From a virus, in IMG/VR virus record IMGVR_UViG_3300020427_000004, positions 1 through 39,131 of that record: a DNA stretch of 39,131 nucleotides; one strand, written 5' to 3'. The first letter of the stretch is position 1. Each line of letters begins with the position of its first letter. Position numbers and translations under genes: made by a program. The notes under the pieces are model-generated. The model was not told the origin of the DNA. It worked only from the letters and a program-made list of their open reading frames with translations, and did no database searches. Shown here piece after piece: positions 3-16,600 of the stretch.

Positions 3-140
3 GAAAAGGTATCACTTGTACTTAATTCAATGGGTGTAAATACCCAGGCTAAAACCAAAGCAGGTTTACAAAAAAGAGTTGATGCTTTAAAACCCGATGA
101 TGTGACGGTTCTAATAAAGGGTTTACATGGTGAATTTTAA
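3..140 (+). CDS. 3' end of an unidentified CDS (5' truncated by the window)
   Basis: An open frame runs from the window edge to a TAA at 138-140 and gives 45 residues, ending ...IKGLHGEF. The fragment is basic and has the phage-like codon use of its neighbours. It is too short to assign a family. Its last codons overlap the first early promoter: the GGTG element at 129-132 encodes part of the C-terminal Gly-Glu. Confidence 0.6.
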   Translation, partial: EKVSLVLNSMGVNTQAKTKAGLQKRVDALKPDDVTVLIKGLHGEF

Positions 141-153
141 TTTATTATATTTG
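129..153 (+). promoter_or_regulatory. Early promoter P1 (RGTG-N13-TATATTTG)
   Basis: GGTG at 129-132 is followed after exactly 13 bp by TATATTTG at 146-153, a match to the Bacteroidota -7 consensus TAnnTTTG. An A/T-only leader with ATAAATTAATAAATAG follows, and the ATG is 22 bp downstream. It is one of ten copies with identical spacing in this window and drives the 176 gene. Confidence 0.8.
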
Positions 154-175
154 AATAAATTAATAAATAGAAATT

Positions 176-451
176 ATGATTAAAGAATTTATTAGATATT
201 TAGGTTATGGTGCTGTTACCTTATTCTATTTTACTAGTATATATGGCATGGTGCTATTTGTATTAGAGGTTAAAAATAAGGTTAATCTTTTAATGGTTTT
301 AATAGGTATATTAATGTTATTAATACTTATAATCTCTATCATATTTATAGGTTATTGTATACTAGGTATAGTTGAATCCTCTTTAAATATATTTGATAAG
401 GATGGTAAATTACCTATAGAAAAAATAAAAGATAAAATTCTTAATAAATAA
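176..451 (+). CDS. Small two-helix membrane protein
   Basis: The product has 91 residues. A hydrophobic helix spans about residues 8-30 and a longer one about residues 37-67, with a charged C-terminal tail ending in lysines. No family is recognised. It is the first gene behind promoter P1, and the ATG is in the ATTATG context used throughout this genome. The DenV-like gene starts 5 bp downstream, so the two are probably co-transcribed. An early inner-membrane protein fits the location, but no function can be inferred. Confidence 0.75.
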   Translation: MIKEFIRYLGYGAVTLFYFTSIYGMVLFVLEVKNKVNLLMVLIGILMLLILIISIIFIGYCILGIVESSLNIFDKDGKLPIEKIKDKILNK

Positions 452-456
452 CAATC

Positions 457-822
457 ATGACCAGAATTAATTGTGGGATACCTCCAGCCGAATTAACAGA
501 CAAACACCTATTAGCTGAGCATAGGGAGATAAAACGTATACCTAATACTATAAAATCGGGTAAAGCTAAGGTGGAAAACATACCCAGAGTATTTACATTA
601 GGTAAGGGGCACGTTAAATTCTTCTATGATAAGCTTTATTATTTACATATAAGGTATGTATTATTATATACTGAATGCATAAAGAGGGGTTTTAAAGTTA
701 CCTTTTATGGGGGTGCATTTGAAGGTTTACCTGACCACTTATATAGGGATTATTGTCCAACAACAGAAGATGAAAGAATCATCAGAGAGAGGATTAAATT
801 GAGATTATCCGGTGTAAAATAA
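457..822 (+). CDS. denV: Pyrimidine dimer DNA glycosylase, T4 endonuclease V (DenV) family
   Basis: The 121-residue protein opens with MTRIN, as in T4 DenV, where Thr2 (after Met removal) is the nucleophile that forms a Schiff base with the damaged sugar. The LLAEHREIKR stretch at residues 18-27 matches the DenV LMAEYRELPR segment. That places the catalytic Glu at residue 24 and the binding arginines at 3, 23 and 27, one position later than in T4. GKGHVKFFYDKL (about 49-61) and the ECIKRGF segment are also conserved. The enzyme would excise UV-induced cyclobutane dimers from phage DNA. T4 DenV has 138 residues; the C-terminal aromatic WYKYY tail that helps bind the dimer there is missing here. 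The family call is firm, but activity is inferred. Confidence 0.92.
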   Translation: MTRINCGIPPAELTDKHLLAEHREIKRIPNTIKSGKAKVENIPRVFTLGKGHVKFFYDKLYYLHIRYVLLYTECIKRGFKVTFYGGAFEGLPDHLYRDYCPTTEDERIIRERIKLRLSGVK

Positions 823-835
823 TAATTTATATTTG
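811..835 (+). promoter_or_regulatory. Early promoter P2 (RGTG-N13-TATATTTG)
   Basis: GGTG lies at 811-814 inside the last codons of the DenV-like gene, and TATATTTG at 828-835 follows with the same 13-bp spacer. An A/T leader runs to the ATG at 859. Confidence 0.8.
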
Positions 836-858
836 TATAAATTAAATAAAAAATAAGA

Positions 859-1242
859 ATGGTATTATTTGATAAATTAAGCCCAGCGCAAAAACAAATA
901 ATTGTTGATATATCCCGTATTCAATTATCCTCATTACGTAGAATATATAATAATGAGCATTTAACCGATGATGACCTGGTAATGTTATTTATTTATAATG
1001 ATATTACTAAGGAGGATTTTATAGCCGAACTTGATATTAAAATCGCAAAAATAAATAATTTTATCAAGGACCCGGATTCTATTCAAAAAATGGATAAATA
1101 CGAGCTATCAATATATAAGCATATACTTTTTCAAATCGAGGATAATTATAAGGATAGGTATCCTCAGGCACTATCCTCTATATGGGAAAGGTTATTTATT
1201 TTAACTGATTTTAAAATTGATTGGCCAATGGCCTTAAATTAA
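859..1242 (+). CDS. Unidentified acidic-helical protein
   Basis: The 127-residue protein is soluble and predicted mostly helical, with alternating Asp/Glu and Lys. There are no membrane segments, cysteines or recognisable motifs. It is the first gene of the P2 unit. The KTSC-domain gene follows after 6 bp, so the two form a short operon that ends at the terminator near 1512. Confidence 0.7.
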   Translation: MVLFDKLSPAQKQIIVDISRIQLSSLRRIYNNEHLTDDDLVMLFIYNDITKEDFIAELDIKIAKINNFIKDPDSIQKMDKYELSIYKHILFQIEDNYKDRYPQALSSIWERLFILTDFKIDWPMALN

Positions 1243-1248
1243 ATTATT

Positions 1249-1470
1249 ATGAAAAAAGGTGAGTGGGTAAAAACGGTATCCTCAAATATTAACCGTGTAA
1301 AGTATGACCAAGATAAACAGATATTATCTGTAGAATTTTTTAATCATATTATATATCATTATCATGATGTACCTGAAACAGAATATGCTATGCTTTTAGC
1401 AGCAGATTCAATTGGTTCTTATTTCGCAAGGAATATTAAAGACCAATTTGAATATACTAAAGAGGACTAA
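1249..1470 (+). CDS. KTSC domain protein
   Basis: The 73-residue product is almost entirely a KTSC domain (a short domain resembling a lysyl-tRNA synthetase C-terminal part). The pattern is a VSSNINRVKYD start, a central short beta segment followed by a Y-H-Y-H-DVP motif, then the GSYFARNIKDQF end, where the family has a G-x-YF-x-x-x-I-x-x pattern. Such stand-alone proteins are common in phages and bacteria and have no settled role. The start is ATTATG, 6 bp after the previous stop, and it is the last gene before a strong hairpin terminator. Confidence 0.82.
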   Translation: MKKGEWVKTVSSNINRVKYDQDKQILSVEFFNHIIYHYHDVPETEYAMLLAADSIGSYFARNIKDQFEYTKED

Positions 1471-1511
1471 GCGATTTTTTCTGTATTTTTATTTATTAGT
1501 TAATTACACCT

Positions 1512-1546
1512 GAAAGACCCCAATAATATGGGGTCTTTCTCTGTTT
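1512..1546 (+). terminator. Rho-independent-type terminator
   Basis: A perfect 10-bp stem, GAAAGACCCC (1512-1521) with GGGGTCTTTC (1530-1539), has an 8-nt loop and is followed by a T-rich tract. It ends the 859-1470 unit just before promoter P3. Confidence 0.85.
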
Positions 1547-1550
1547 ATAT

Positions 1551-1575
1551 GGTGTTCTTTTAATTATTATATTTG
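1551..1575 (+). promoter_or_regulatory. Early promoter P3 (RGTG-N13-TATATTTG)
   Basis: GGTG at 1551-1554 and TATATTTG at 1568-1575 are 13 bp apart. The site lies between a strong terminator and the 1604 gene, which supports its reading as a true promoter. No TTG is present at the canonical -33 distance. Confidence 0.85.
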
Positions 1576-1603
1576 AATAAATTAATAAATAAAATAAATA
1601 GTT

Positions 1604-1864
1604 ATGGCAAACATGAGTTATTGTAGATTCGAAAATACCCTATCTGATTTAAGGGATTGTTTAGAAGCATTCAAGGATATTAAACTTGATCCAGAATGCG
1701 AAGAAAATCAATTAAGTACAAGAGAATTAGGATCTCTTGTAGAGATGATAGATATCATGAGAGAATTCTCTGAGGAACTCATTGAAATAGATTTAGATCT
1801 AGAAGATGATATAACTAAAGAAGATTTAATAAAAGCATTACCTGGCATAGATGGAAAATATTAA
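1604..1864 (+). CDS. Conserved phage-type hypothetical protein (MANMSYCRFENT family)
   Basis: The 86-residue acidic protein begins MANMSYCRFENTLSDLRDC, a start I associate with a widespread family of small uncharacterised phage and bacterial proteins. The remainder is helical and Asp/Glu rich. It is the first gene behind P3, and its 3' end overlaps the next gene by 14 bp. Function is unknown. Confidence 0.75.
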   Translation: MANMSYCRFENTLSDLRDCLEAFKDIKLDPECEENQLSTRELGSLVEMIDIMREFSEELIEIDLDLEDDITKEDLIKALPGIDGKY

Positions 1865-2573
1865 AAAGAAAATAGCAGCTTTATTCAAGAAAGCAGAATC
1901 AGCAAAAGAGATAGATTCATTAGAAGAAGCCCAGGCCTTTATGGCTAAGGCCCAGGATTTACTAGCCAAATATAATCTAGAAAAATCCCAATTAGATTTA
2001 GATGATGAAACTATTAAAATAGAGCATGATGTATTCAACATGAGGGATAAATTTAAATGGCAAAAAACAGATGGTAATTGGTTAATTAGCCTTTATCATA
2101 CTGTATCCATATTTAACTTTGGTAAAATTGTAAAACATAACATGTATGAATTTACTATCATCGGTGAGCAGGCCAATATAGATATGATAGATTATATGTG
2201 TAGCAATATAATCCCAAAAATAAAGGAGTTAAGATTAAAGGCTTGGAAAGAATATAATGGGCCAGATAAATCCAATGCTTTTAAAAGGGGTTATTATAAA
2301 GGGGCTGTTAGTGGTATCTATTTTAAACTAAGGGAAATAAGAGAACAGGCCAAAAAGGAATACTCGGGTATGTCATCTCTGGTTATATCACATAATAGAG
2401 CTATATCAGAAGAAGCTAGTAAACTATTTAATACCATAAGAACGGGTAAAGCCCGAAGTTATTCATCTGAATCCGGTAGAGAATTAGGTTTTAGGGATGG
2501 TAAAAACCTAAACCTAAATAAAGGGGTCTCGGGTAAAAGTAAAACAAGTAGAACTTTAAAATTAGGACAATGA
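1851..2573 (+). CDS. DUF2786 domain protein
   Basis: In this 240-residue protein, residues about 2-47 match the DUF2786 pattern: a basic IKKKIAALFKKAESA helix followed by an EEAQAFMAKAQDLLAKYNLE helix. The middle holds a mixed segment with conserved aromatics, and the C-terminal third (GRELGFRDGKNLNL) is basic and glycine rich, as in many phage members. The function of the family is unknown, although its occurrence in phages and plasmids suggests a nucleic-acid context. The start codon lies inside the preceding gene and the stop overlaps the next start (ATGA). Confidence 0.8.
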   Translation: MENIKKKIAALFKKAESAKEIDSLEEAQAFMAKAQDLLAKYNLEKSQLDLDDETIKIEHDVFNMRDKFKWQKTDGNWLISLYHTVSIFNFGKIVKHNMYEFTIIGEQANIDMIDYMCSNIIPKIKELRLKAWKEYNGPDKSNAFKRGYYKGAVSGIYFKLREIREQAKKEYSGMSSLVISHNRAISEEASKLFNTIRTGKARSYSSESGRELGFRDGKNLNLNKGVSGKSKTSRTLKLGQ

Positions 2574-2926
2574 GAAAGGTATTAGCTTGGTTAGCAATAA
2601 CCAGTATAATAAGTTCAGGATATTTATTACAAAGGAATAGTTCTAGAGCTAGGCAGAAAGAATTAGAAGAGAATACAGTAGGACCCCCTAAACAAGAAAC
2701 TACCTATCAAGAAATCAGGGGCTACAACTATAATGAAGGGGATGGTTATAAATCCTACTCTGACGAGGAGATAAGGATGTTAAGAGAAAAACAGTCCTTT
2801 AAAAGTGAAGGTAGTTATATTTATACACCTGGTAGGCATGTACCTACCAGAGAAGAGGAAATTGAAAGATACCTAGAAGATAACCCAGATTTAATAGAAG
2901 AGATTTATGAAAAATACCGAGACTAG
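2570..2926 (+). CDS. Small protein with N-terminal signal or anchor helix
   Basis: The 118-residue protein has a basic start followed by a hydrophobic stretch at about residues 4-20, which reads as a signal peptide or membrane anchor without a lipobox cysteine. The rest is charged and rich in Glu, Arg and Tyr, so a periplasmic domain is plausible. It overlaps the upstream stop by 4 bp and the downstream gene by 20 bp. No family is recognised. Confidence 0.7.
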   Translation: MRKVLAWLAITSIISSGYLLQRNSSRARQKELEENTVGPPKQETTYQEIRGYNYNEGDGYKSYSDEEIRMLREKQSFKSEGSYIYTPGRHVPTREEEIERYLEDNPDLIEEIYEKYRD

Positions 2927-3233
2927 TGATTGGGAGTTAAGATATTACTATAACTTTGGTAGAGATTATGATGTACTGGGTAATTATGGAAATAATAAGA
3001 CTTTAGCATTTGGTATGCGTAAGGTAAAAGCTAGGGAATCAAATTTCCCCCTACAAAGCCTAAAAGTAATTGATAAGGGGAAAGAACAGAAGAAAATAAA
3101 AAAGTTTGGATTGGTATTATCCCGATTAGACATAACACCTATTAGGAAAAGATTTTATAAGGATCTTAATAAGAAGCCTAAGAAAAAGAAAAAGCCTAAA
3201 AAGGTTAATAATGGGCAATTAAGGCTATTCTAG
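2907..3233 (+). CDS. Unidentified basic protein
   Basis: The 108-residue protein has an aromatic N-terminal half and a very basic C-terminal tail (KKPKKKKKPKK, about residues 90-100) that ends GQLRLF. The tail suggests nucleic-acid or envelope binding, but that is only inference. The start is inside the preceding gene. It is the last gene before promoter P4. Confidence 0.65.
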   Translation: MKNTETSDWELRYYYNFGRDYDVLGNYGNNKTLAFGMRKVKARESNFPLQSLKVIDKGKEQKKIKKFGLVLSRLDITPIRKRFYKDLNKKPKKKKKPKKVNNGQLRLF

Positions 3234-3261
3234 TTCAAATTAGTTGTCAAACGGCTATTAC

Positions 3262-3286
3262 GGTGAATTATTATAAAATATATTTG
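3262..3286 (+). promoter_or_regulatory. Early promoter P4 (RGTG-N13-TATATTTG)
   Basis: GGTG at 3262-3265 and TATATTTG at 3279-3286 have the 13-bp spacer. The leader to the ATG at 3331 is unusually long (44 bp). Confidence 0.8.
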
Positions 3287-3330
3287 TATTATCAAATTAA
3301 AATAAATTATTAATTAAAACCATTTAGATT

Positions 3331-3681
3331 ATGGCAACTGTTAAAAAAGTAAGTAGTAAAGCTAAAACGTCCAAAAGTACAAAAGCTAAAGTAGGTAATA
3401 CCAAAAAGGTAACCAGAAAAAAGGTAAACAAAAAAGACCTTGATCAAAAGAATATCAAGGATACCGTTACCAAGGTAGTAGAGACCAAAAGGGAATTGAA
3501 ATATGATTACCCAAACGAAATGAAGGATACTCTTAAAAGGAAAAAATTTCGCCAAAAAGTTAGAAATAAAATCAATTCCTTCCAATTGCATTTACTTAAA
3601 TTGGATGAAAAATCCAAAGAATATAAAAAATTGGATAGGGAATATAAATCTTATAGGAAAGAGGTATTATTGGTACCTTAA
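3331..3681 (+). CDS. Lysine-rich small protein, distant paralogue of the 13164 product
   Basis: In this 116-residue protein, residues 1-56 form a Lys/Ser/Thr-rich tail with no hydrophobic core, like a histone tail. Residues about 65-116 form a helical region with KDTLKRKKFRQKVRNKINSF. The same order (lysine tail, KDT, K-x-FR-x-[KR]-[IV]-RN, amphipathic helix, F/Y-rich end) is found in the 13164 product. Each is a single-gene unit with its own promoter and a following hairpin. A nucleic-acid-binding role is suggested by composition only. Confidence 0.75.
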   Translation: MATVKKVSSKAKTSKSTKAKVGNTKKVTRKKVNKKDLDQKNIKDTVTKVVETKRELKYDYPNEMKDTLKRKKFRQKVRNKINSFQLHLLKLDEKSKEYKKLDREYKSYRKEVLLVP

Positions 3682-3702
3682 TCATATGGAAACTGTATTA
3701 GT

Positions 3703-3740
3703 ATAAGGGGGTTGTATTTAATGGTATAATCCCCTTATTA
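3703..3740 (+). terminator. Possible weak terminator hairpin
   Basis: An 8-bp stem, ATAAGGGG (3703-3710) with CCCCTTAT (3731-3738), encloses a 20-nt loop. It follows the lysine-rich gene and precedes P5. The long loop and the missing T-tract make it weak. Confidence 0.45.
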
Positions 3741-3752
3741 ATGTGTTATACC

Positions 3753-3777
3753 GGTGTTCTTTAATTTATTATATTTG
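3753..3777 (+). promoter_or_regulatory. Early promoter P5 (RGTG-N13-TATATTTG)
   Basis: GGTG at 3753-3756 and TATATTTG at 3770-3777 are 13 bp apart. The spacer TTCTTTAATTTAT is almost identical to that of P3. It drives the 3812-5150 operon. Confidence 0.82.
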
Positions 3778-3811
3778 AATAACTAATAAAATAAAAAAAA
3801 ATATAGAAACT

Positions 3812-4087
3812 ATGAGTAATTTAAATCACGGGGAAATTAAAGATTCCAACCTATTACAAGAACATAGGGATTTAGTTGAATCATATCTTAATAATGAAAC
3901 TAAATTAGAACTAGAAGCTAAAAATAAGATACTAAAACTTTATGACCATTATTTACATAAAGATAATATCCGGTATTATATTAACCAACATGTTAAAGTA
4001 CTTATAGTACATATAGCCCAAGGTCAAGTAAAGAAAGCTGCTAAATACTTTCCTAAAGGATACCTAGAGGATGAGAATACTATTTAA
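3812..4087 (+). CDS. Unidentified helical protein
   Basis: The 91-residue protein is predicted helical, with many charged residues and aromatic Tyr/His in the C-terminal half. It has no motif I can name. It heads the P5 operon of seven small genes that continues to 5150. Confidence 0.65.
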   Translation: MSNLNHGEIKDSNLLQEHRDLVESYLNNETKLELEAKNKILKLYDHYLHKDNIRYYINQHVKVLIVHIAQGQVKKAAKYFPKGYLEDENTI

Positions 4088-4104
4088 TCTAAAACACATA
4101 TAAA

Positions 4105-4299
4105 ATGGAAAATCAAACTAATTCTTTAAATCAAAAAGCTACATTATTCTATGCAAGATATGCATTTAAAACACAAGGCCTTAAAAAAGTTAAGGTTCAC
4201 TATGAGGGATTAATTGATAAATGCCCTGGTGATTTAAAACAAGGCTTAAAAGGTTTAGAGAATTTTAAATACATAAGGATATGGCAGAAGGCAATTTAA
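4105..4299 (+). CDS. Unidentified small basic protein
   Basis: The 64-residue protein is basic, with a KTQGLKKVKVHYEGL core. Its start follows the previous stop by 17 bp. The end overlaps the next small gene by 19 bp. Confidence 0.6.
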   Translation: MENQTNSLNQKATLFYARYAFKTQGLKKVKVHYEGLIDKCPGDLKQGLKGLENFKYIRIWQKAI

Positions 4300-4457
4300 A
4301 TTGGGATTATGAAGGTTCGCCAAGTGGGCTTAAAAATAAAGCTCAAGAAATATTAAACCTTGCAAAGAAAAAAGAACTAAATATACCTAAAGGGTATAAA
4401 GCTATATGGGTTGATGGTCCCCTTAGAGCCAAAATAAGGAAAATAGTAAAAGAATAA
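4281..4457 (+). CDS. Unidentified 58-residue protein
   Basis: An ATG at 4281 inside the preceding gene opens a 58-codon frame ending TAA at 4455-4457. The product is basic, with a Trp-containing start (NLNWDYEG) and a KIRKIVKE end. Overlap on both sides with genes in the same direction and matching codon use make it a likely real gene of the P5 operon. Confidence 0.6.
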   Translation: MAEGNLNWDYEGSPSGLKNKAQEILNLAKKKELNIPKGYKAIWVDGPLRAKIRKIVKE

Positions 4458-4458
4458 T

Positions 4459-4608
4459 ATGGAAAGTCTTGGCGAATATAAGAATGATATTTATATATTA
4501 GCCCAAAGGGTTAATGAATTTAGGGATTGGTGGGATAATAAAGTTAAATCACCAAATCGGATATCAGAAAGTCAATATGTTTCACTTTTAACTAAAATGG
4601 ATTATTAA
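4459..4608 (+). CDS. Unidentified 49-residue protein
   Basis: ATG at 4459 begins 1 bp after the previous stop, and the TAA at 4606-4608 overlaps the next ATG (TAATG). The product has a central FRDWWDNKVK motif and is otherwise helical. The stop-start overlap supports translational coupling. Confidence 0.6.
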   Translation: MESLGEYKNDIYILAQRVNEFRDWWDNKVKSPNRISESQYVSLLTKMDY

Positions 4609-4928
4609 TGGTGATACATGATGCTAACTATATAGATAGGAAAGAGTTCTTAAGTATGGGCTATAATCATAATATTATGTTTTTGTTTATATTCTATAAT
4701 AATGAAATCCTAAATAAAAAACCATTCAATTTAGGCCCAGAATTAAATAGGGATTGGTTATATTCTAAAGAGTTTGAGGATAGGATAGACAACCTAGTAA
4801 AAAGGGGTTATATTAAAAAGGTATTCAAACCTTTCAAAAACCAATCTTACAAACTTTACTCAATTACACCTTATGGTTTAAAACAAGCAGAAAATGGCCT
4901 CAAAAATAAAATTTCAACCACAGCCTAA
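4608..4928 (+). CDS. Possible winged-helix protein
   Basis: The 106-residue protein has a helical N-terminal part, then NLVKRGYIKKV followed by YKLYSITPYGLKQAE. That hints at a winged-helix (MarR/PadR-like) arrangement, with a recognition helix ending in a Gly-Tyr turn, a beta wing and then a T-x-x-G helix. It could be a small DNA-binding regulator of the early region. The fold is inferred from pattern only. Confidence 0.6.
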   Translation: MVIHDANYIDRKEFLSMGYNHNIMFLFIFYNNEILNKKPFNLGPELNRDWLYSKEFEDRIDNLVKRGYIKKVFKPFKNQSYKLYSITPYGLKQAENGLKNKISTTA

Positions 4929-5031
4929 ATTAGGGCCTCAACAACAGGTACTTTCCTTTATAGAGAAAAATTATAAAGGCCCTAAAAGAACACATCTCAT
5001 TAACTATTATAAAAACAACCCTATATCATGA
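4894..5031 (+). CDS. Unidentified 45-residue protein
   Basis: The ATG at 4894 lies inside the preceding gene. The frame is 45 codons long and the TGA overlaps the next ATG (ATGA at 5028-5031). The product is basic, with a proline- and glutamine-rich start. It is kept because of the unbroken coupling in the operon. Confidence 0.5.
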   Translation: MASKIKFQPQPKLGPQQQVLSFIEKNYKGPKRTHLINYYKNNPIS

Positions 5032-5150
5032 AAGATTTAAAACCCTGGGAAATTATAGGCTTAATATATATTGCCTATGCTATATTTTTATTTATGATAG
5101 CCTGGGCCTTAAGTAAGGATAAAAAACCTAAAAAAGGTGATAAAAGGTGA
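5028..5150 (+). CDS. Single-helix membrane microprotein (40 aa)
   Basis: ATG at 5028 overlaps the previous stop. The product has one hydrophobic helix (about residues 9-28, IIGLIYIAYAIFLFMIAWAL) and a lysine-rich C-terminus. Its final codons overlap the GGTG of promoter P6. It is one of several one-helix proteins encoded by this phage. Confidence 0.6.
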   Translation: MKDLKPWEIIGLIYIAYAIFLFMIAWALSKDKKPKKGDKR

Positions 5151-5170
5151 ATTATTAATTTCTATATTTG
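5146..5170 (+). promoter_or_regulatory. Early promoter P6 (RGTG-N13-TATATTTG)
   Basis: GGTG at 5146-5149 sits in the 3' end of the upstream microprotein gene, and TATATTTG is at 5163-5170 with a 13-bp spacer. It serves the 5203-6458 gene pair. Confidence 0.82.
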
Positions 5171-5202
5171 AATAAATTAATAATAAATAAAAATAAGTAA
5201 TT

Positions 5203-5847
5203 ATGGAAAATTCAATTAAAACACCCTTTTGTTATCAAATCACCCAAGATATTATTTGGGAGTACATTGAACTGAAATATGGTATCTTAACCGTAGAAAA
5301 TTCTTTAGGTATAAGCGATATATTTGATCTAGCCAAAAACCTGGAAGAAGATGTACCTCAAAATGATAGGGTTAAACGTAATATATTAATCCTTGCTTTA
5401 TTTGAAAATCCTTGTAATGATTTAAAACTTAACGAGGTAATAATTGATTTAAGGAAACCAATAAATGATCAAATAAGTTGGAGTATAGCATCATATGAAA
5501 AAATTCTTTGGTTAAACTATATAAGTCAACCAGAAGGTTATTATGGGGAATTTAGCATTGAATTTCAGGAAACCGATATAAATCCCAGTATATTTGAAGA
5601 GGCCTTAGAAAAAGGTTTGATTAAACCGGGACCTAATTATTTAGATAAATATTGGGAAATAATGGAATGGTTCTTAAAACCAGTGTCATTTATAGATTGG
5701 GAATCTATAGAAAAAAGTAAAGGTGATACTTTCCTAGATGATGATCAGGTCATAGATATAGTTAAGCAATTAGACTTAGATAGGAAAACCTTAAGTACCC
5801 ATAAATTAAATCAAATTAGAGTACAACTTATAAAAACATTATTATAA
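5203..5847 (+). CDS. Unidentified acidic protein
   Basis: The 214-residue soluble protein is acidic and rich in Ile, Leu and Trp, without cysteine motifs or membrane helices. It starts in ATTATG behind P6, and its stop overlaps the next start by one base (TAATG). The two genes form a bicistronic unit closed by the terminator at 6484. No family is recognised. Confidence 0.72.
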   Translation: MENSIKTPFCYQITQDIIWEYIELKYGILTVENSLGISDIFDLAKNLEEDVPQNDRVKRNILILALFENPCNDLKLNEVIIDLRKPINDQISWSIASYEKILWLNYISQPEGYYGEFSIEFQETDINPSIFEEALEKGLIKPGPNYLDKYWEIMEWFLKPVSFIDWESIEKSKGDTFLDDDQVIDIVKQLDLDRKTLSTHKLNQIRVQLIKTLL

Positions 5848-6458
5848 TGGAACTAGAAAATTTTAAATTCAGAATTACAAGAGAAGCAATAAGAGATCTA
5901 AATGGTTTATTAGGGAGTCTAAGTGATTTAAGTGATACACTTGGCCTTACCGGAAATGAGGATATAATGGTAGAATTTAGAGATCGCCGGGGATTTAATG
6001 AAAGGCCTATTGTTATTATTTATGACCTATATGCAGGGTTAAGTGATTTCCCAACTGGAGAAGAAGCGGCCGGTATAAGGGATTACAGTTATGAGGACCT
6101 AATAGATGCTGGTATAGAAGATGGTAAGGCCATAAGGAAATTGATAGAAAAAGATTATATCGAGAAAGTAGACCCTGATGGGGAATTCCTGTTAGCGGTA
6201 AACGGTATATTCACCTTCCAAGATAAACCTAGCCCTAAATATATTTTAATTAGGGATAAAATACCTATGGATTCTTTACCCGGTATAGGTGAACAATGGG
6301 AACCTGTTTTAAGGTTATTGGATAAAGAGTTTAAGTATTCAATTATAAAAAATTATAAAGAGATTTGTCATAAAAATGAGGATCACTGTAAGACCAATCT
6401 AGAATTTGGATTTAAGGGATTAAGAACCCTAATATTTAAAAAATTGGGGATTTTATAA
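5847..6458 (+). CDS. Unidentified protein
   Basis: The 203-residue protein is acidic in its first two thirds, with a basic C-terminal helix (GFKGLRTLIFKKLG). A central segment with several Tyr-Asp pairs looks structured, but I cannot assign a family. It is coupled to the preceding gene. Confidence 0.72.
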   Translation: MELENFKFRITREAIRDLNGLLGSLSDLSDTLGLTGNEDIMVEFRDRRGFNERPIVIIYDLYAGLSDFPTGEEAAGIRDYSYEDLIDAGIEDGKAIRKLIEKDYIEKVDPDGEFLLAVNGIFTFQDKPSPKYILIRDKIPMDSLPGIGEQWEPVLRLLDKEFKYSIIKNYKEICHKNEDHCKTNLEFGFKGLRTLIFKKLGIL

Positions 6459-6483
6459 TAATCCCTAAAAATTATAATATATT

Positions 6484-6518
6484 ACAAAGGCTCTACACTA
6501 AGGGCCTTTGTTTGTTTA
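6484..6518 (+). terminator. Terminator after the 5203-6458 unit
   Basis: The 8-bp stem ACAAAGGC (6484-6491) with GCCTTTGT (6504-6511) has a 12-nt loop and a TTGTTTATA tail. Further AGGCCTTA-type palindromes follow at about 6522 and 6542. The remaining sequence up to P7 holds no gene. Confidence 0.7.
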
Positions 6519-6619
6519 TAGGCCTTAAACCCTTACAAATAAAGGCCTTATAATATATTATATTAAATCAAATCCTTTGGGCTTCCTAGAGCTCGACAAA
6601 AGAAGACAGTTGTTTATAT

Positions 6620-6644
6620 AGTGAATTATTAATTACTATATTTG
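6620..6644 (+). promoter_or_regulatory. Early promoter P7 (RGTG-N13-TATATTTG)
   Basis: AGTG at 6620-6623 replaces GGTG, with 13 bp to TATATTTG at 6637-6644. It precedes the 6669-8434 operon. Confidence 0.8.
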
Positions 6645-6668
6645 AATATAATTAATAAATAAAATAAA

Positions 6669-6893
6669 ATGGAAAAACACCTAACATCTAATGAAATAAA
6701 ATTAATAGGCTTATTAGTTCACTCTTCACAAAACCATGAGCTTATAGAAGAGCTTATCGAAGACTCTTGGGATGAAATGGAAATGGATATTCCCAAGGAT
6801 TTTGATTACGTAGAAGAACTAGAACAACTTAAAAGGTTATTCCCAGACCCTGAAGAGAATGTGTTAGAATATTTAACTATAAAAAACAAATAA
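6669..6893 (+). CDS. Unidentified acidic small protein
   Basis: The 74-residue protein is very acidic (LIEELIEDSWDEMEMDIP, then many Glu). A small, strongly acidic early protein could be a DNA mimic, but nothing beyond charge supports this. First gene behind P7. Stop and next start overlap (TAATG). Confidence 0.68.
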   Translation: MEKHLTSNEIKLIGLLVHSSQNHELIEELIEDSWDEMEMDIPKDFDYVEELEQLKRLFPDPEENVLEYLTIKNK

Positions 6894-7381
6894 TGGAAAA
6901 CTCAAATTACACCTTCGAAGATTTCGAAAAAGAAAGAGAACACCTATTACAATATATTGAGGTAGTAGGTAAGAAAGCCCCCAGTAAAGAATTTTGTCAA
7001 ATGTTCTTTAATAGAATTACTAAAGGCTGGGAATTATCCCAGGAAAAATGGAGGGGTGATTTAATAGATTACCATGCTTGGGGTTATGCTTTTTATGGTG
7101 ATATAGATTATAATGGTGAAATCATAGCAAATTCCCTAAATATATGGCATTGGTTATCAGTTTATGGTATAAATGGAACTGACCCAGAGGAAGGTGTTTC
7201 TATAGAGATTACTTATAACCAGTATAGTTTCCTTTGGGATTTATTACAAAAGAACAAAACCTTTAATCAAGGGGTTATAGATAAGGCTCATACTATAAAT
7301 AGGAATACTTCTGGATTAGAGAAAAAAGCCCAGGATAATATAGATATGATTAATAAATTGTTAGATTCATTAACCGAGTAA
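6893..7381 (+). CDS. Unidentified protein
   Basis: The 162-residue protein is rich in Trp and Tyr in the middle (residues about 48-90, including a WHWL motif), with a helical C-terminus. There is no recognised domain and no signal sequence. It is coupled to the previous gene by a one-base overlap and followed by a lipoprotein gene 3 bp later. Confidence 0.72.
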   Translation: MENSNYTFEDFEKEREHLLQYIEVVGKKAPSKEFCQMFFNRITKGWELSQEKWRGDLIDYHAWGYAFYGDIDYNGEIIANSLNIWHWLSVYGINGTDPEEGVSIEITYNQYSFLWDLLQKNKTFNQGVIDKAHTINRNTSGLEKKAQDNIDMINKLLDSLTE

Positions 7382-7383
7382 TT

Positions 7384-7788
7384 ATGAGAAAGTTATTTAT
7401 ATTAATGGTAGGCCTATTATTTATATCATGTGAGTATATTGGCCCTGGGGAAACAGAAAGGGGTTTTACTACTTATGTATGGTTTAACCCCGATAACCTT
7501 GAAAAAATAGATATATCTGCTTACCCGGATAGGGAGATATATACGGTAGAAAATGGTAATATGTTTAAAATAGGCTGGGAAATACAAGGAATAGATTACC
7601 ATTTAAGGGTAGAATTTCCTGATGGTATTATAGATAAAGTAAACTTTACTGGTACCGATATAAGAAAAGGAGAAGAATATCCCAATGATTCAACATTTAC
7701 CCAGGTACAACCTCAGGTAAATTTATTGGATACACAGGATGGTAAATATCTATTAATAATATATACAGATTGTTATAAATGTCAATAG
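7384..7788 (+). CDS. Phage-encoded lipoprotein
   Basis: The 134-residue protein has a short basic N-terminus, a hydrophobic core and a lipobox ending in Cys16 (LLFISC). It should be processed by signal peptidase II and lipidated. The mature part is predicted beta-rich, with Tyr/Trp and Gly-Asp turns and a final CYKCQ. A phage lipoprotein in an early operon recalls superinfection-exclusion lipoproteins of other phages, but no sequence similarity is claimed. Confidence 0.78.
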   Translation: MRKLFILMVGLLFISCEYIGPGETERGFTTYVWFNPDNLEKIDISAYPDREIYTVENGNMFKIGWEIQGIDYHLRVEFPDGIIDKVNFTGTDIRKGEEYPNDSTFTQVQPQVNLLDTQDGKYLLIIYTDCYKCQ

Positions 7789-7877
7789 AGATATATCAAA
7801 TATTCGGCGGATTAGAGATTTTAATAATCCTAGTTTTATTATTAATGTTTTTAAAAGAATATCCAAAACTGAGATGA
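7779..7877 (+). CDS. Single-helix membrane microprotein (32 aa)
   Basis: ATG at 7779 lies within the lipoprotein gene's last codons. The 32-codon frame ends TGA at 7875-7877, overlapping the next ATG. The product is essentially one hydrophobic helix (about residues 9-25) with a KEYPKLR tail. Coupling on both sides supports it. Confidence 0.6.
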   Translation: MSIEIYQIFGGLEILIILVLLLMFLKEYPKLR

Positions 7878-8038
7878 GAAAGAATACACTAGAACCTAAT
7901 AAAAAAGCTATAAAATTATTAAACCATTATAGTAAGAAAAATGCTCTAGCTAAGGCTATATCTAAAAGAAAAGAGATGCCAAAAGGAACTATTGGGTACT
8001 TCTACTGGAAAGATGTAATTAAAATTATAAAAAAATGA
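7874..8038 (+). CDS. Unidentified 54-residue basic protein
   Basis: The start overlaps the preceding stop (ATGA at 7874) and the stop overlaps the next ATG (ATGA at 8035). The product is very basic and helical, with ALAKAISKRKEMPKGTIGYF suggesting a helix-turn-helix-like segment. Function unknown. Confidence 0.62.
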   Translation: MRKNTLEPNKKAIKLLNHYSKKNALAKAISKRKEMPKGTIGYFYWKDVIKIIKK

Positions 8039-8250
8039 TTAGTAATATAAGTCCAGAAATAGAAGCAAAAGTATTATCCTGTGTAGATAATATAAAAAGA
8101 AAGAATATACCTAAAGTATTAGGTGTAACAACAGCTTTGGTTAACTATATATTTGCTAAACATAAGATCAAGAGAAAGCCTAATAAGTATGATAAATATG
8201 GTAGGCTAAAAGAAACACATAAAACAATATACCATTATGACAAAGATTAA
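8035..8250 (+). CDS. Small basic protein with helix-turn-helix-like segment
   Basis: In this 71-residue basic protein, residues about 22-46 (KNIPKVLGVTTALVNYIFAKH) read as a helix, a Gly-containing turn and a second helix, like a small homeodomain-type or resolvase-type DNA-binding motif. It overlaps both neighbours. Possible regulator; assigned only from pattern. Confidence 0.62.
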   Translation: MISNISPEIEAKVLSCVDNIKRKNIPKVLGVTTALVNYIFAKHKIKRKPNKYDKYGRLKETHKTIYHYDKD

Positions 8251-8434
8251 GATGATCACAGTATTTGATCCACTATCAGGTAAAGATATTAATCTACCTT
8301 TACCAACTACTAAGTATGAATTGGTAAAGGCTACTATAAACGATATGAAAAAGGCTAACCCGGGTAAGGATATCAAAATAACCAGGGTTCAAGATGAGTT
8401 AATTTATGAGCCCGTGGACCCTAAAAATGAGTAA
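8237..8434 (+). CDS. Unidentified small protein
   Basis: The 65-residue protein has beta-type segments (MITVFDPLSGKDINL; DIKITRVQDELIYEP). The start is 14 bp inside the previous gene. It is the last gene before promoter P8. Confidence 0.6.
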   Translation: MTKIKMITVFDPLSGKDINLPLPTTKYELVKATINDMKKANPGKDIKITRVQDELIYEPVDPKNE

Positions 8435-8438
8435 TACC

Positions 8439-8463
8439 AGTGTTTTTTAATTTCTTATATTTG
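8439..8463 (+). promoter_or_regulatory. Early promoter P8 (RGTG-N13-TATATTTG)
   Basis: AGTG at 8439-8442 and TATATTTG at 8456-8463 have the 13-bp spacer. The downstream leader is nearly the same as that of P7. Confidence 0.8.
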
Positions 8464-8487
8464 AATATAATTAATAAATAAAAAATA

Positions 8488-8733
8488 ATGGAAAATTTTA
8501 TTGTAGGCAAAACAGTATTAAAAGGCATAGATAAACAAACCTTCCAAGACGCAAAGAATTGGTTAGACCAACAAAATGGCTGCCCTTATGATATTGATGA
8601 ACATGTATTAGATGCAGCTAATAATATATCACAAGAAACCGGTGAAACAGTAGTGGAAGTAATAGAATCATGGGCATATAGTTATAATGACCTAATGGCA
8701 GAGAAAGGTTTAAAAGAATTAAATAAACAATAG
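8488..8733 (+). CDS. Unidentified acidic small protein
   Basis: The 81-residue acidic helical protein contains an NWLDQQNGCPYDIDEH segment. It is the first gene behind P8. No family is recognised. Confidence 0.68.
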   Translation: MENFIVGKTVLKGIDKQTFQDAKNWLDQQNGCPYDIDEHVLDAANNISQETGETVVEVIESWAYSYNDLMAEKGLKELNKQ

Positions 8734-8741
8734 TTATAGTT

Positions 8742-9260
8742 ATGGATAAAGGGATACTAAATGCAAAGCTTCTCCAAGATGGGAGATCATTCTGGACAAC
8801 AGACAATGGGTTCACATTTAAAATGCAGGACCAAAAAGGTGAAATCTTAGAAGTAACAGAGGCTTATTATAAGAAAATGCTAACACTGTGGAGAAAGGAG
8901 CAAAAACAATATAAGAAGGCGGGTAAGATTTTGGATAAAACTCATAAAACTATCGAAAAAGGTTTTGAAAAAGCAGAGTCTGAAAGAGTTGAATTTGTAA
9001 AAGCTTTAAAGAAAGGTATACCAGTAAGACCCTTAGGGATAGGTTATGCACATACTGATTTACATGATAATGAGCTTAGGAGTATAGGTCATAAGGCTTC
9101 TCATTATTTACCAAAGGATGAGATTACAATAAACCTAAGAGCACTAGATGAAGAAGCCTTGGATGACCTTAAGTTTATATTAGAAGATCAACTAGGAATG
9201 AAACCAGATGACACCAACGAGAAGGCATTAGATGCTATTAATAACTATAAAGAACTATAA
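8742..9260 (+). CDS. Unidentified protein with central charged helix
   Basis: The 172-residue protein has a short beta-like N-terminal part (about 1-40), then a long Lys/Glu-rich helix (about 45-90, probably coiled coil), then a region with several His residues, and an acidic C-terminus. No family is recognised. The next gene begins 4 bp after its stop. Confidence 0.68.
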   Translation: MDKGILNAKLLQDGRSFWTTDNGFTFKMQDQKGEILEVTEAYYKKMLTLWRKEQKQYKKAGKILDKTHKTIEKGFEKAESERVEFVKALKKGIPVRPLGIGYAHTDLHDNELRSIGHKASHYLPKDEITINLRALDEEALDDLKFILEDQLGMKPDDTNEKALDAINNYKEL

Positions 9261-9264
9261 GATC

Positions 9265-9585
9265 ATGAAACACATAAGAGTTAAACTAGCAGAGACAAAA
9301 ACCCAGGTAAATATCCTAACAATAAAGGATAACAATAGTGTTTATCAAACTGTACTGGATAATCAAGAACTACAAAACCTAAAGGATGAGCTAAATATCA
9401 ATAAGGCCGAATCAGAAGATAATCACCTATCACCTGTAAAAATTAGGGCCTTAGCAGAACTAAGAAAGGCATATAGACAATACGAAAACCATAAAAACCT
9501 AAGATATCTAGAATTAAAGGATAACTACCTTAAGATAGGACTAATCACCCAAGCGGATATAACAGAACTACTCCTAAAACAATAA
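9265..9585 (+). CDS. Unidentified protein, member 1 of a tandem paralogue set
   Basis: The 106 residues are counted from ATG 9265. An upstream in-frame ATG at 9232 would overlap the previous gene by 29 bp and adds residues with no counterpart in the paralogues. The N-terminal 45 residues are beta strands followed by LDNQELQNLKDELN. The same strand-then-L-[DS]-x-x-EL-x-x-L plan recurs in the next two genes. The C-terminal half is helical and basic. Confidence 0.65.
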   Translation: MKHIRVKLAETKTQVNILTIKDNNSVYQTVLDNQELQNLKDELNINKAESEDNHLSPVKIRALAELRKAYRQYENHKNLRYLELKDNYLKIGLITQADITELLLKQ

Positions 9586-9590
9586 TAACA

Positions 9591-10097
9591 ATGAAACAAC
9601 CAGTAGAAATAAAGGTAATCAAAACCTTATACAAAGGTAACCAAAACCTAACACAAATAATGTTCACCAATCGCAATAAGGGAGGCATTATAAGTAAACA
9701 ATCCTTAATCACCTTAGATGAGAAAGAACTACAATCACTTAAAAGCCAATTAAACGATAACGGTAAATCTAATAGATTAAGTTATACACCTAACCCTTGT
9801 AAAGGTGAAGCAGATAAAGAAGTTAACCAATGGATAAGCGTGGAAGATAGATTGCCAAATGGTGACACAGAATCCAATGAAACTGAAGTTGAAGTAATTG
9901 GTTATAATGAAAATTGGGTTCATCCAGATTTTAACCCCAATGGAACTAGAGTTTGTTGCATGGATGATTTTGGTTGGTATTCCGCTAGGTGGAATAATGA
10001 ACATACTTTTTACAAAGATGTTAGTCCAGAAGAAGAGGATAATCCAACACATTGGAGACCAATACCAAAATCACCTAATCACCCAAAACACAAATAA
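9591..10097 (+). CDS. DUF551 protein with N-terminal domain shared with its neighbours
   Basis: In this 168-residue protein, residues about 1-55 resemble the small domain of the flanking genes (LDEKELQSLKSQLND). Residues about 79-163 match DUF551: QWISVEDRLPNG at the start, a GWYSARWN stretch, and a closing P-THWRPIPKSP. DUF551 occurs in many phage accessory proteins and has no known function. It follows the preceding gene by 5 bp, and the next small gene starts 2 bp after its stop. Confidence 0.78.
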   Translation: MKQPVEIKVIKTLYKGNQNLTQIMFTNRNKGGIISKQSLITLDEKELQSLKSQLNDNGKSNRLSYTPNPCKGEADKEVNQWISVEDRLPNGDTESNETEVEVIGYNENWVHPDFNPNGTRVCCMDDFGWYSARWNNEHTFYKDVSPEEEDNPTHWRPIPKSPNHPKHK

Positions 10098-10099
10098 CA

Positions 10100-10273
10100 A
10101 TGAATACAATAGAATTAAAAACCAACACACCTATAATAGGTAATCACCAACTAATTATCACAGACGAATGTGATAATGAAACCACCCACAACCTTAGTGA
10201 CTATGAATTAGAACAACTAATCACCCAGGTATCAAACCTAACCAACAACCCAAAAACAAAAATAAATCTTTAA
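10100..10273 (+). CDS. 57-residue protein, member 3 of the tandem paralogue set
   Basis: ATG at 10100, 2 bp after the DUF551 stop; TAA at 10271-10273. It consists only of the shared small domain: beta-rich start, then LSDYELEQLITQVSNL. The codons are markedly C- and A-rich (ACC, AAC, CCA). Confidence 0.6.
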   Translation: MNTIELKTNTPIIGNHQLIITDECDNETTHNLSDYELEQLITQVSNLTNNPKTKINL

Positions 10274-10288
10274 ATAAATAAAACAATT

Positions 10289-11095
10289 ATGAGAACACCA
10301 AGGCCAATAGGAACAACAAACATAGGGGCATCAATAAATAATAATCAAGATAACAACCTATTACAATTACATATAATAGATTCATATATCAATAGCAATT
10401 TCACTTACTGTAATAAGGCCATGAGCATAGAAGTATTTGCAAGGTATATAGGAATAGACAGACAGATGATATTAGAAAGGATTACTAATAAGGGTAAAGA
10501 TCTATATCAAATGGTAGACCCAGAACAACAAGGTGATCAACTCAGGGCACTAATTGGAATCACTCTAGGAAATGCACTGACTGACCGTAGCTTAGCTCTA
10601 GAGCAGCATAGTATACTAGCTTCTGAGCAAGGGGGTGTATACAAACCTTTCATTTCCGGAGAGGTCAATAAGGCCCTAAAGCTAGTTATGGAATCCACAT
10701 CCGGAATCCTTAATATCGCCAAATCGCTAGGGGGCAACCAAGGCCTTAATATAACTCTGAACAACCACAATGGCGATAACAACCAAGAGAACCATAATTA
10801 CCTTACTGCCCATCAAGCATTAGAACTTATGCATCAGCAGGCTAAGTTAGAAGACGGCCCCTCGTTGCTGGAAGATCCATCCGCTAAGAAGGCCTTATTT
10901 GAAAAGTATAATATAGGGGCTACTCCTATTGTAAAGGCTAATGAACAACAAGGCCTTGATGATAGTCGAGAGGGCCTTAATTTTAAGGATCTGGCACAGT
11001 TATCAGATAGCAAGGTAGACCGGCCAGCTAAGGCTACACATATAGATAGAAGGGCTAGGGAGATTGAGATAGATCCTGATGAGGATCAGATATAG
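10289..11095 (+). CDS. Putative DNA-binding protein, possibly terminase small subunit
   Basis: In this 268-residue protein, residues about 44-65 (MSIEVFARYIGIDRQMILERI) look like a helix-turn-helix. The middle (about 85-150) is helical, with VYKPFISGEVNKALKLV, a pattern I associate with some small-terminase proteins. A low-complexity Asn-rich linker and an acidic, charged C-terminus follow. A small terminase would recognise packaging sites and hand DNA to TerL, whose gene is about 11 kb away at 22002. The gene and the 200 bp after it are rich in AGGGCCTT and AAGGCC motifs, which could be binding sites. The call is tentative; a regulator is the alternative. Confidence 0.45.
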   Translation: MRTPRPIGTTNIGASINNNQDNNLLQLHIIDSYINSNFTYCNKAMSIEVFARYIGIDRQMILERITNKGKDLYQMVDPEQQGDQLRALIGITLGNALTDRSLALEQHSILASEQGGVYKPFISGEVNKALKLVMESTSGILNIAKSLGGNQGLNITLNNHNGDNNQENHNYLTAHQALELMHQQAKLEDGPSLLEDPSAKKALFEKYNIGATPIVKANEQQGLDDSREGLNFKDLAQLSDSKVDRPAKATHIDRRAREIEIDPDEDQI

Positions 11096-11312
11096 GGCCT
11101 TAAGTCCTTAATACATATTGAAAGTTTTGTTGGGGGTAAAGTACTCGTGGTAGGGCTCTGGGATTAATATCTTAGGGCCTTATTTATGTTGTTTTAGGGC
11201 CCCCAGCAAAGGTGCTTTACTTACGATCTTAGGGCCTTCAATGGTAGGGCCTTATTGTTGAGGTGATTTAGGGCCTTAATAGACTAGGGCCTTTAAGCAG
11301 TCTACGGCCGTA
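11094..11312. repeat. AGGGCCTT repeat cluster in the 11096-11381 intergenic region
   Basis: AGGGCCTT occurs six times, at 11094, 11174, 11231, 11246, 11270 and 11286, plus a TTAGGGCCC at 11194. The motif contains the GGCC palindrome, and several copies extend to TTAGGGCCTTA. The region has no convincing ORF. A TACGGCCGTA palindrome (11303-11312) closes it, 11 bp before P9. Confidence 0.7.
11304..11311. promoter_or_regulatory. ACGGCCGT palindrome upstream of P9 (possible operator)
   Basis: This 8-bp perfect palindrome lies exactly 12 bp before the GGTG of P9. The same octamer at the same distance precedes P10. Confidence 0.5.
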
Positions 11313-11323
11313 AAGGATAATCT

Positions 11324-11348
11324 GGTGTTTTATTAATTATTATATTTG
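11324..11348 (+). promoter_or_regulatory. Early promoter P9 (RGTG-N13-TATATTTG)
   Basis: GGTG at 11324-11327 and TATATTTG at 11341-11348 have the 13-bp spacer. It drives the single-gene unit at 11382. Confidence 0.82.
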
Positions 11349-11381
11349 TATTATAAATAAATAATTAAATAAATAGAAATT

Positions 11382-11786
11382 ATGAAATCAATTACAGCAG
11401 ATCAAATCCTTAAAAACACCTACACATTAGGCAAAGCATTTAGGGAATTACCAACTAACCTTATAAGTAAACTTTTATCAGATGACCTTAAAACACCTAG
11501 GGATTTAAATTCATTTAACCCCTGGAAAAACTATTTACCAAAAAGGACCTTTTTTCAAACAGAGGGTGATTTAAATGAGCTCTACCTTATGGCCATAAGG
11601 GATATGTTATCACCTTATGATTTGATTAATCCCAGGGTACCAGGTTTTATTAATCTGGTGGATTTTGCAATGGCATCCAGTGATATTATGGGTTATGAGG
11701 AATTTGAGAAACTAGAGGTAGTTCAGGATTGGAAACATGAATACCCTAATATGTTCAAGACACTATTGGTATGGGCTTGGGGTTAA
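11382..11786 (+). CDS. Unidentified protein
   Basis: The 134-residue soluble protein contains NSFNPWKNYLPKRTFF and a Trp-rich C-terminus. No motif is recognised. It is a single-gene unit between P9 and the hairpin terminator at 11794, starting in ATTATG. Confidence 0.72.
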   Translation: MKSITADQILKNTYTLGKAFRELPTNLISKLLSDDLKTPRDLNSFNPWKNYLPKRTFFQTEGDLNELYLMAIRDMLSPYDLINPRVPGFINLVDFAMASSDIMGYEEFEKLEVVQDWKHEYPNMFKTLLVWAWG

Positions 11787-11793
11787 TTTATAT

Positions 11794-11820
11794 AAGGCCT
11801 AGGATTATATCCTGGGCTTT
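11794..11820 (+). terminator. Terminator hairpin after the 11382 gene
   Basis: A 12-bp stem, AAGGCCTAGGAT (11794-11805) with ATCCTGGGCTTT (11809-11820), has two G-U pairs and a 3-nt loop, and ends in a TTTGTTG tract. The intergenic sequence to P10 also has TTAGGGCCC (11840), AGGGCCTT (11878) and AAAGGCCTTA (11901). Confidence 0.7.
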
Positions 11821-11921
11821 GTTGTGTAAGGATACTGTGTTAGGGCCCAGGAGCAATGGGTGTATGTATATGGCTTGAGGGCCTTATAGAGGATTAACCT
11901 AAAGGCCTTAATACTCCTTCG

Positions 11922-11929
11922 ACGGCCGT
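11922..11929. promoter_or_regulatory. ACGGCCGT palindrome upstream of P10 (possible operator)
   Basis: Same octamer and same 12-bp gap to GGTG as at P9. Confidence 0.5.
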
Positions 11930-11941
11930 GGTAGTATTACT

Positions 11942-11966
11942 GGTGAACTTTAATAAATTATATTTG
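11942..11966 (+). promoter_or_regulatory. Early promoter P10 (RGTG-N13-TATATTTG)
   Basis: GGTG at 11942-11945 and TATATTTG at 11959-11966 have the 13-bp spacer. It serves the 11991-12323 genes. Confidence 0.82.
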
Positions 11967-11990
11967 TATAAATAAATAAATAATTATATT

Positions 11991-12194
11991 ATGGAAAATA
12001 AAAAAACACCTTATCATTATGCTTCAACCAAAACATATCCAAATGCCAAAGTGGGGGATATATTACATGCATCCTCTGGAGCACCAGGTTTTGGTAGAAC
12101 AGAAAATAAAGTTACTGAAATAAAAGGTAATGAGATTTGGGCTATAGAGATATTTAATAATATCCAAATAATGGATCCAGATGACTGTTATTAA
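11991..12194 (+). CDS. Unidentified small protein
   Basis: The 67-residue protein is probably a small beta-barrel-like fold: KVGDILHASSGAPGFGRTENKV, then KGNEIWAIEIFNNIQIM. Gly-rich turns between strands are evident. No family is recognised. First gene behind P10. Confidence 0.65.
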   Translation: MENKKTPYHYASTKTYPNAKVGDILHASSGAPGFGRTENKVTEIKGNEIWAIEIFNNIQIMDPDDCY

Positions 12195-12218
12195 CCAACA
12201 CAATTAAATAAATAAATT

Positions 12219-12323
12219 ATGTTAAGATTAAATAAGATACCAACTAACGTTATTATCATAGCCCTAGTCCTAATCGATTTATTAATCACATACATAATCA
12301 TATTTGGAATCCCTACATTCTAA
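12219..12323 (+). CDS. Single-helix membrane microprotein (34 aa)
   Basis: ATG at 12219 (context AATTATG), TAA at 12321-12323. A short basic start precedes one hydrophobic helix over about residues 10-31. A GC-rich hairpin follows at once. Confidence 0.6.
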   Translation: MLRLNKIPTNVIIIALVLIDLLITYIIIFGIPTF

Positions 12324-12332
12324 ATATAACCT

Positions 12333-12365
12333 GGGCCCTTATCCCTACATAGGGCCCTCTTATAA
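12333..12365 (+). terminator. GGGCCC hairpin, probable terminator
   Basis: GGGCCCT (12333-12339) pairs with AGGGCCC (12351-12357) around an 11-nt loop, followed by TCTTATAAAA. It uses the same GGGCCC core as the palindromes nearby. The T-tract is poor. Confidence 0.5.
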
Positions 12366-13091: not shown

Positions 13092-13123
13092 TTTGTATGT
13101 AATACTAAAAGGACATATATTTG
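13092..13123 (+). promoter_or_regulatory. Host-like Bacteroidota promoter for the 13164 gene
   Basis: TTTG at 13092-13095, then 20 bp, then TATATTTG at 13116-13123 match the canonical TTG-N19-21-TAnnTTTG promoter. There is no RGTG 13 bp upstream of the -7 element, unlike the ten early promoters. The ATG is 40 bp downstream. Confidence 0.75.
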
Positions 13124-13650: not shown

Positions 13651-13683
13651 GGGGGGCAATTAATTTTGTCCCCCATCTTTTTT
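13651..13683 (+). terminator. Strong terminator after the moron
   Basis: A stem of GGGGG (13651-13655) with CCCCC (13670-13674), extended inward by four pairs including one G-U, has a 6-nt loop and is followed by ATCTTTTTTT. Confidence 0.88.
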
Positions 13684-16517: not shown

Positions 16518-16519
16518 CC

Positions 16520-16600
16520 ATGCATACCATACAAATAGTAATCATATGTTTATTTGGTATGCTTATATTGTGGAAAATATTTGAACCACCAACACATTAA
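16520..16600 (+). CDS. Single-helix membrane microprotein (26 aa)
   Basis: ATG at 16520 lies 2 bp after the previous stop, with TAA at 16598-16600 and the next ATG 4 bp on. The product is nearly all one hydrophobic helix (about residues 4-20). The tight fit between neighbours makes translation likely despite its size. Confidence 0.5.
   Translation: MHTIQIVIICLFGMLILWKIFEPPTH

Follow-up and report, generated by a model that had tools for sequence, protein, structure and literature searches.

At the middle promoters of phage T4, the MotA box occupies -35 to -26, lies 12 ± 1 bp from the -10 element and replaces the -35 element; its consensus is WWWTGCTTtA, and MotA and AsiA together remodel sigma region 4 (PMC2988021). 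The housekeeping promoter of Bacteroidota (TTTG / TAnnTTTG), which is read by sigma-ABfr, has a -7 element and a TTG or TTTG at -33. Activated promoters of the lambda CII type carry direct repeats that flank the -35 element. Herein, we describe an array of sites (RGTG class) in a virus that probably infects Bacteroidota bacteria. No promoter class of this kind was found described in the literature, and phage redirection of Bacteroidota RNA polymerase has seemingly been little published.

The RGTG class resembles the T4 middle promoters in several respects. A host -10-type element is kept, and a phage box takes the place of the -35/-33 element 12-14 bp upstream; between the end of RGTG and TAWATTTG there are 13 bp at 36 sites and 14 bp at 4 sites, or 9-10 bp if the following TTYT is counted. 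The copies are many and stand ahead of non-structural gene runs, and the phage shares DenV, UvsX-like and gp32-like functions with T4. However, the box is RGTGTTYT with a G at -37 and not WWWTGCTTtA, and the host sigma factor and the -7 consensus are different. No homologue of MotA or AsiA was detected in the RGTG phages G001 and G002, both complete-size genomes (no PF09158 or PF09010 match in a profile search at E ≤ 1, which remote homologues would escape). With the sigma-ABfr promoter the sites share the -7 element TAWATTTG, the leader length and an AT-rich leader, but they have no TTTG or TTG at N17-23 and carry a GTG box 13-14 bp upstream. Promoters of phage alternative sigma factors have a -10 element that differs from the host box, whereas the -7 element of the RGTG class is the host consensus. 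As in the lambda CII type, the DNA upstream of the -10 region contains two blocks separated by roughly one helical turn; the sequence and position differ, and there is no CII homologue among the proteins scanned.

The RGTG array in the window and its parent phage

The window is the whole stretch of viral DNA analyzed, 39,131 nucleotides in length. A preliminary description had reported ten copies of RGTG-N13-TATATTTG in it, each ahead of a gene run. A pattern scan of the window recovered exactly these ten, all on the plus strand (Table 1), and nothing elsewhere or on the minus strand. Chance or base composition as the source of the array was ruled out, as evidenced by the absence of matches in 100 dinucleotide shuffles and of matches to the reversed pattern in the window. 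An ATG opening a gene run lies 22-44 nt downstream of each copy (10/10), and the copies themselves are in noncoding DNA or at the extreme end of the gene before them. The motif extends beyond the one described earlier: a G is found eight bases 5' of RGTG in nine of the ten copies, TTYT or AATT directly follows RGTG, and the spacer contains no G. Several copies come after terminator-like hairpins, two of which are listed in Table 1 and a third of which is at 11149-11184. The intergenic parts of 11090-12360 are also dense in AGGGCC repeats (12 of the 27 copies in the window are at 11094-12353), with CGGCCG nearby; this stretch is possibly a replication origin or a protein-binding array.

Table 1. 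Promoter-type sites and the DenV-like gene in the window (window coordinates).
Feature	Coordinates	Strand	RGTG start	ORF downstream	Remarks
RGTG-class promoter 1	121..153	+	129	176-451	G-37 at 121; GGTG 129-132; TATATTTG 146-153
RGTG-class promoter 2	803..835	+	811	859-1242	
RGTG-class promoter 3	1543..1575	+	1551	1604-1864	Terminator-like hairpin 1512-1539 just upstream
RGTG-class promoter 4	3254..3286	+	3262	3331-3681	Sister-phage orthologues with TTTG-N20 promoters
RGTG-class promoter 5	3745..3777	+	3753	3812-4087	
RGTG-class promoter 6	5138..5170	+	5146	5203-5847	Sole window copy without G at -37
RGTG-class promoter 7	6612..6644	+	6620	6669-6893	AGTG; terminator-like hairpin 6484-6511 upstream
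RGTG-class promoter 8	8431..8463	+	8439	8488-8733	AGTG
RGTG-class promoter 9	11316..11348	+	11324	11382-11786	
RGTG-class promoter 10	11934..11966	+	11942	11991-12194	
Host-type promoter TTTG-N20-TATATTTG	13092..13123	+		13164-13643	Sole canonical promoter found
DenV-like pyrimidine-dimer glycosylase gene	457..822	+			phrog_1183, E 4e-34; within array region; RGTG-clade-specific

The window is part of a 78,590-base (~78.6-kb) IMG/VR contig, IMGVR_UViG_2802429351_000001 (G001); window base 1 corresponds to G001 43801, and the two are identical across 34,790 bases except for one base. The end of the window runs on into the start of G001, indicating a circular or circularly permuted genome. The contig ends of G001 fall in collagen-like (Gly-X-Y) repeats; such repeats at window 34790-35366 break or collapse the G001 assembly, and its two ends meet there. 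Genes for a sheath, baseplate J, a tail tape-measure-type protein, portal, capsid and TerL identify the virus as a contractile-tailed phage (myovirus).

A search of the whole phage genome, which the preliminary description had proposed, yielded 12 copies in G001, two of them outside the window at 37681 and 41844. All 12 lie within 37.6-56 kb, a region of small orphan ORFs that also holds DenV and a DUF2786 protein, and none was found in the structural and replication regions. This confinement to the non-structural orphan-ORF region speaks for an early or middle class without proving it. Middle timing is as possible as early timing and would suit an activator whose synthesis has to come first. 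The structural intergenic gaps contained no clear motif for late promoters.

Relatives and the pooled motif

Two relatives with the same gene order and a TerL that is ~70-73% identical carry 15 and 14 RGTG-class sites. The first (G002; 77,888 bases, TerL 70%) has 15 copies with the consensus AGTGTTCTAWTAATTTG-TAWATTTG-TCCTATAATTAATTAAAAT; a further, variant copy with ACTG is at 70541. The second (G054:C36, CALNCH010000036; 77,408 bases, TerL 73%) carries 14, of which ten are N13 and four N14, and a fragment (G004) has one RGTG-class copy. The spacing of exactly 13 bp claimed earlier therefore applies to this phage but is too strict for the class, since it is 14 bp at four sites in G054. In IMG/VR scans, multi-copy arrays were found in this phage and G002 only, and the other contigs gave single scattered matches.

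Two side observations concern G054. Its contig, CALNCH010000036.1, is a complete-size phage contig of this group that GTDB lists within a Spirochaetaceae MAG, probably through a binning error. Its N14 copies in L155 (~15547, 16550 and 18096) overlap hairpins such as AGTGAACA...TGTTCACT, so that the same bases may belong to both a terminator and the promoter box at these sites. The inverted repeat GTWWAC-N-GTGTT, seen at a few G054 sites, was discarded as the box since it is not conserved in the window copies.

We pooled 38 N13 sites and numbered them with TAWATTTG at -12 to -5, the -7 element numbering of F. johnsoniae promoters (PMC6847099). GTG occupies -28 to -26 in all 38 sites, with a purine at -29 and a C at -31. 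A G is present at -37 in 32 of the 38 (p about 5e-22), and the selection of sites was independent of it. The pooled sites are also G-rich at -39/-38, have T, T, Y and T at -25 to -22, and have a spacer poor in G. TAnnTTTG (TAHHTTTG) is invariant in all copies, in agreement with the claim that the -7 element fits the Bacteroidota consensus. The claim that TTG is missing at the usual distance also held, as TTG at N17-N23 occurs in 0/10 window copies and 0/38 pooled sites, and so did the closer placement of RGTG, the box being 6-7 bp nearer to the -7 element than the -33 TTG is. The sites thus possess the -7 element of a Bacteroidota sigma-A promoter and lack its -33 TTG/TTTG 17-23 bp upstream. 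In the three phages, 46 noncoding TAWATTTG elements lie shortly before a gene; GTG is at N13 in 36 of them and at N14 in four, and TTTG is at N20 in one. Coding TATATTTG elsewhere in the three phages showed no GTG spacing peak.

Canonical promoters in sister phages and the motif in host genomes

The TTTG-N20 promoter in Table 1 indicates that an RGTG phage also carries a host-type promoter. The ORF behind it is a single-gene unit that ends in a strong terminator of its own (13651-13674). The orthologues of this ORF in several sister phages (L112 ~1139; L117 ~672-; L133, L139) have a boxA-like leader, CGTTCTTTGAAATAYTGA, upstream instead, which we take to resemble Bacteroidota rRNA-leader antitermination signals.

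Sister phages with the same gene order (G010, G013, G014, G015, G017, G022 and the human-faecal MT121964) carry repeated TTTGCA-N18-TAnnTTTGCA, that is, TTTG at N20; this canonical-promoter clade is mostly from gut or rumen. The first array gene (G001 37734) is preceded by GTG-N13 in G001, G002 and G054 and by TTTG-N20 in G010 and MT121964. Likewise, the gene at G001 47131 has GTG-N13/N14 in G001, G002 and G054 and TTTG-N20 in G015 and MT121964. Since orthologous genes have TTTG-N20 in the sister clade, the RGTG box occupies the place where the -33 box normally acts. On the TerL tree, each promoter class forms one group with full support. Two phages near the RGTG phages, G008 and G005, have other arrangements; as judged by eye, three of the four sites in G008 have TTTG at N18 or N21. 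At G008 35316-41344 on the minus strand (L121-L124), TTTG at N18 or N21 is accompanied by a G at -26 before TATATTTG; the G008 arrangement is possibly intermediate between the two promoter classes.

The frequency of the motif in bacterial genomes was determined next to reversed controls. RGTGTT-N11-TATATTTG gave 37 matches versus 28 for the controls in 296 Bacteroidota genomes (~1 Gb). The canonical TTTG-N20 pattern gave ~115 versus 49 in 61 of these genomes (counts summed by hand), an enrichment of ~2.3-fold, indicating that the scan is able to detect a real promoter. With a stricter RGTG pattern, repeated matches in 84,980 GTDB species genomes occurred on the G054 phage contig only, besides two single matches. 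The preliminary description had named equal frequency of the motif in the host genome as a refuting outcome, and the scans speak against such an outcome: the motif is at chance level in Bacteroidota genomes, which stand in here for the actual host. A TerL search of genome contigs for a host genome found none. A role of the RGTG box as a general Bacteroidota host promoter was ruled out by this chance-level frequency.

Proposed mechanism, alternatives and significance

The preliminary description had offered a phage-specific activator or an alternative sigma-type contact. Of these, a phage-specific factor best accounts for the host -7 element, the lack of TTG, the box 6-7 bp closer, the fixed geometry and the chance frequency in Bacteroidota genomes. 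An alternative sigma factor is the less likely choice, given the housekeeping type of the -7 element and the failure to find a homologue of sigma70 region 2, although one conserved minus-strand phage protein has a faint sigma-like fold. We give a probability of about 0.6 to a phage-specific promoter class in which the host sigma-A polymerase acts on the -7 element and a separate protein acts on a composite upstream site that replaces the -33 contact. The activator would best be read as phage-encoded and, less likely, as borrowed from the host. Host sigma-A RNA polymerase would read TAWATTTG at -12 to -5 in the usual way, and the separate protein, on the composite site G(-37)-N7-[A/G]GTGTTYT (box at -29 to -22), would take over from the -33 TTTG contact. 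The activator would bind from about -37 to -22, on a site centred near -30. The two G blocks, 9-11 bp apart or about one helical turn, could present successive major grooves on one face to one protein or a dimer, and the bound protein would touch RNA polymerase or sigma region 4. Sigma region 4 normally reads TTTG 20 bp upstream; a box ~7 bp closer would lie on another face of the helix, so that a separate protein or a remodelled sigma would be needed. The -33 element is weak in Flavobacterium (PMC6847099), and the missing TTG alone is therefore no proof of an activator. We infer dependence on an activator from the replacement, the geometry and the conservation, and likewise infer that transcription starts at these sites, that the activator originates from the phage and that the timing is early or middle. 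We further propose, tentatively and at somewhat less than even odds, an independently evolved appropriation of sigma in a lineage of Bacteroidota phages, as a counterpart to T4 middle transcription: a novel activator unrelated in sequence to MotA/AsiA would use the G-N7-RGTGTTYT box, the -33 contact of the divergent Bacteroidota sigma-A would be replaced across a regulon, and the canonical promoters of orthologues would have been swapped out.

Few proteins are restricted to the RGTG-class phages: a tail-region protein, a dCMP deaminase, DenV, a lipoprotein-like protein and two basic proteins. The basic proteins (G001 38773-39549 and 41138-41848), which are RGTG-clade-specific and belong to no recognizable family, are the first activator candidates. 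A conserved 222-aa protein is encoded at G001 16404-17072 on the minus strand, against the rest of the genome. Its predicted structure is all-helical, and the three top PDB matches are all sigma factors, although the best E is 0.6 and not significant. The protein, whose resemblance to sigma factors is weak, is found in both promoter classes and may be a late sigma-like factor.

A phage sigma factor such as this protein might recognize the entire RGTG-N13-TATATTTG unit, whose fixed two-box geometry is like that of a sigma promoter. We consider this quite improbable: profile searches of G001 and G002 with Sigma70_r2 gave no match, the structural matches are not significant, the protein also occurs in canonical-promoter phages, the -7 box matches that of housekeeping promoters exactly, and a role in late genes would be more natural. 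It is unlikely, though less remote, that a host activator or a host-lineage-specific preference of sigma-A reads the box and that the phage has adapted to its host's regulator. Immediate-early use would then be possible without a phage protein, and the hosts of the two clades probably differ, given that the TerL tree sets the clades apart and that some of the canonical phages are faecal. Genome scans would also miss a rare regulator that has few sites in its host. However, the motif is not enriched in the 296 Bacteroidota genomes and is nearly absent from the 84,980 species genomes apart from the phage-like contig, and the sigma motifs that the text of a study of F. psychrophilum describes show nothing similar (PMC9723704).

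The box could also be an operator at which a phage repressor shuts off the promoters, which would themselves require no more than the -7 element and an AT-rich stretch upstream of it. A weak -33 element is tolerated in Flavobacterium promoters (PMC6847099), and the site and the footprint of the polymerase overlap, but an operator could coexist with TTG, and TTG never occurs together with the box (0/38). Moreover, sister phages without the box have a strong TTTGCA, which argues for replacement and not addition, and the spacing to the -7 element is held at 13-14 bp; we therefore regard an operator as very improbable. That the copies are a dispersed recent repeat with no function as a signal is scarcely credible. 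The AT-rich leaders downstream are also similar, but the boxes have stayed fixed as the spacers and the sequence upstream drifted towards background, and the copies are kept in three phages, nearly always 5' of genes and on the coding strand.

The proposed phage-specific promoter class has a sharply defined box and a natural comparison in orthologues with and without it, which makes the mechanism testable, and the array points to a phage regulon and its activator. RGTG promoters could serve as phage-responsive or orthogonal promoters in Bacteroidota genetics. For the virus itself, the array suggests a takeover of the host transcription machinery by means of a switch protein that the virus either supplies or recruits.
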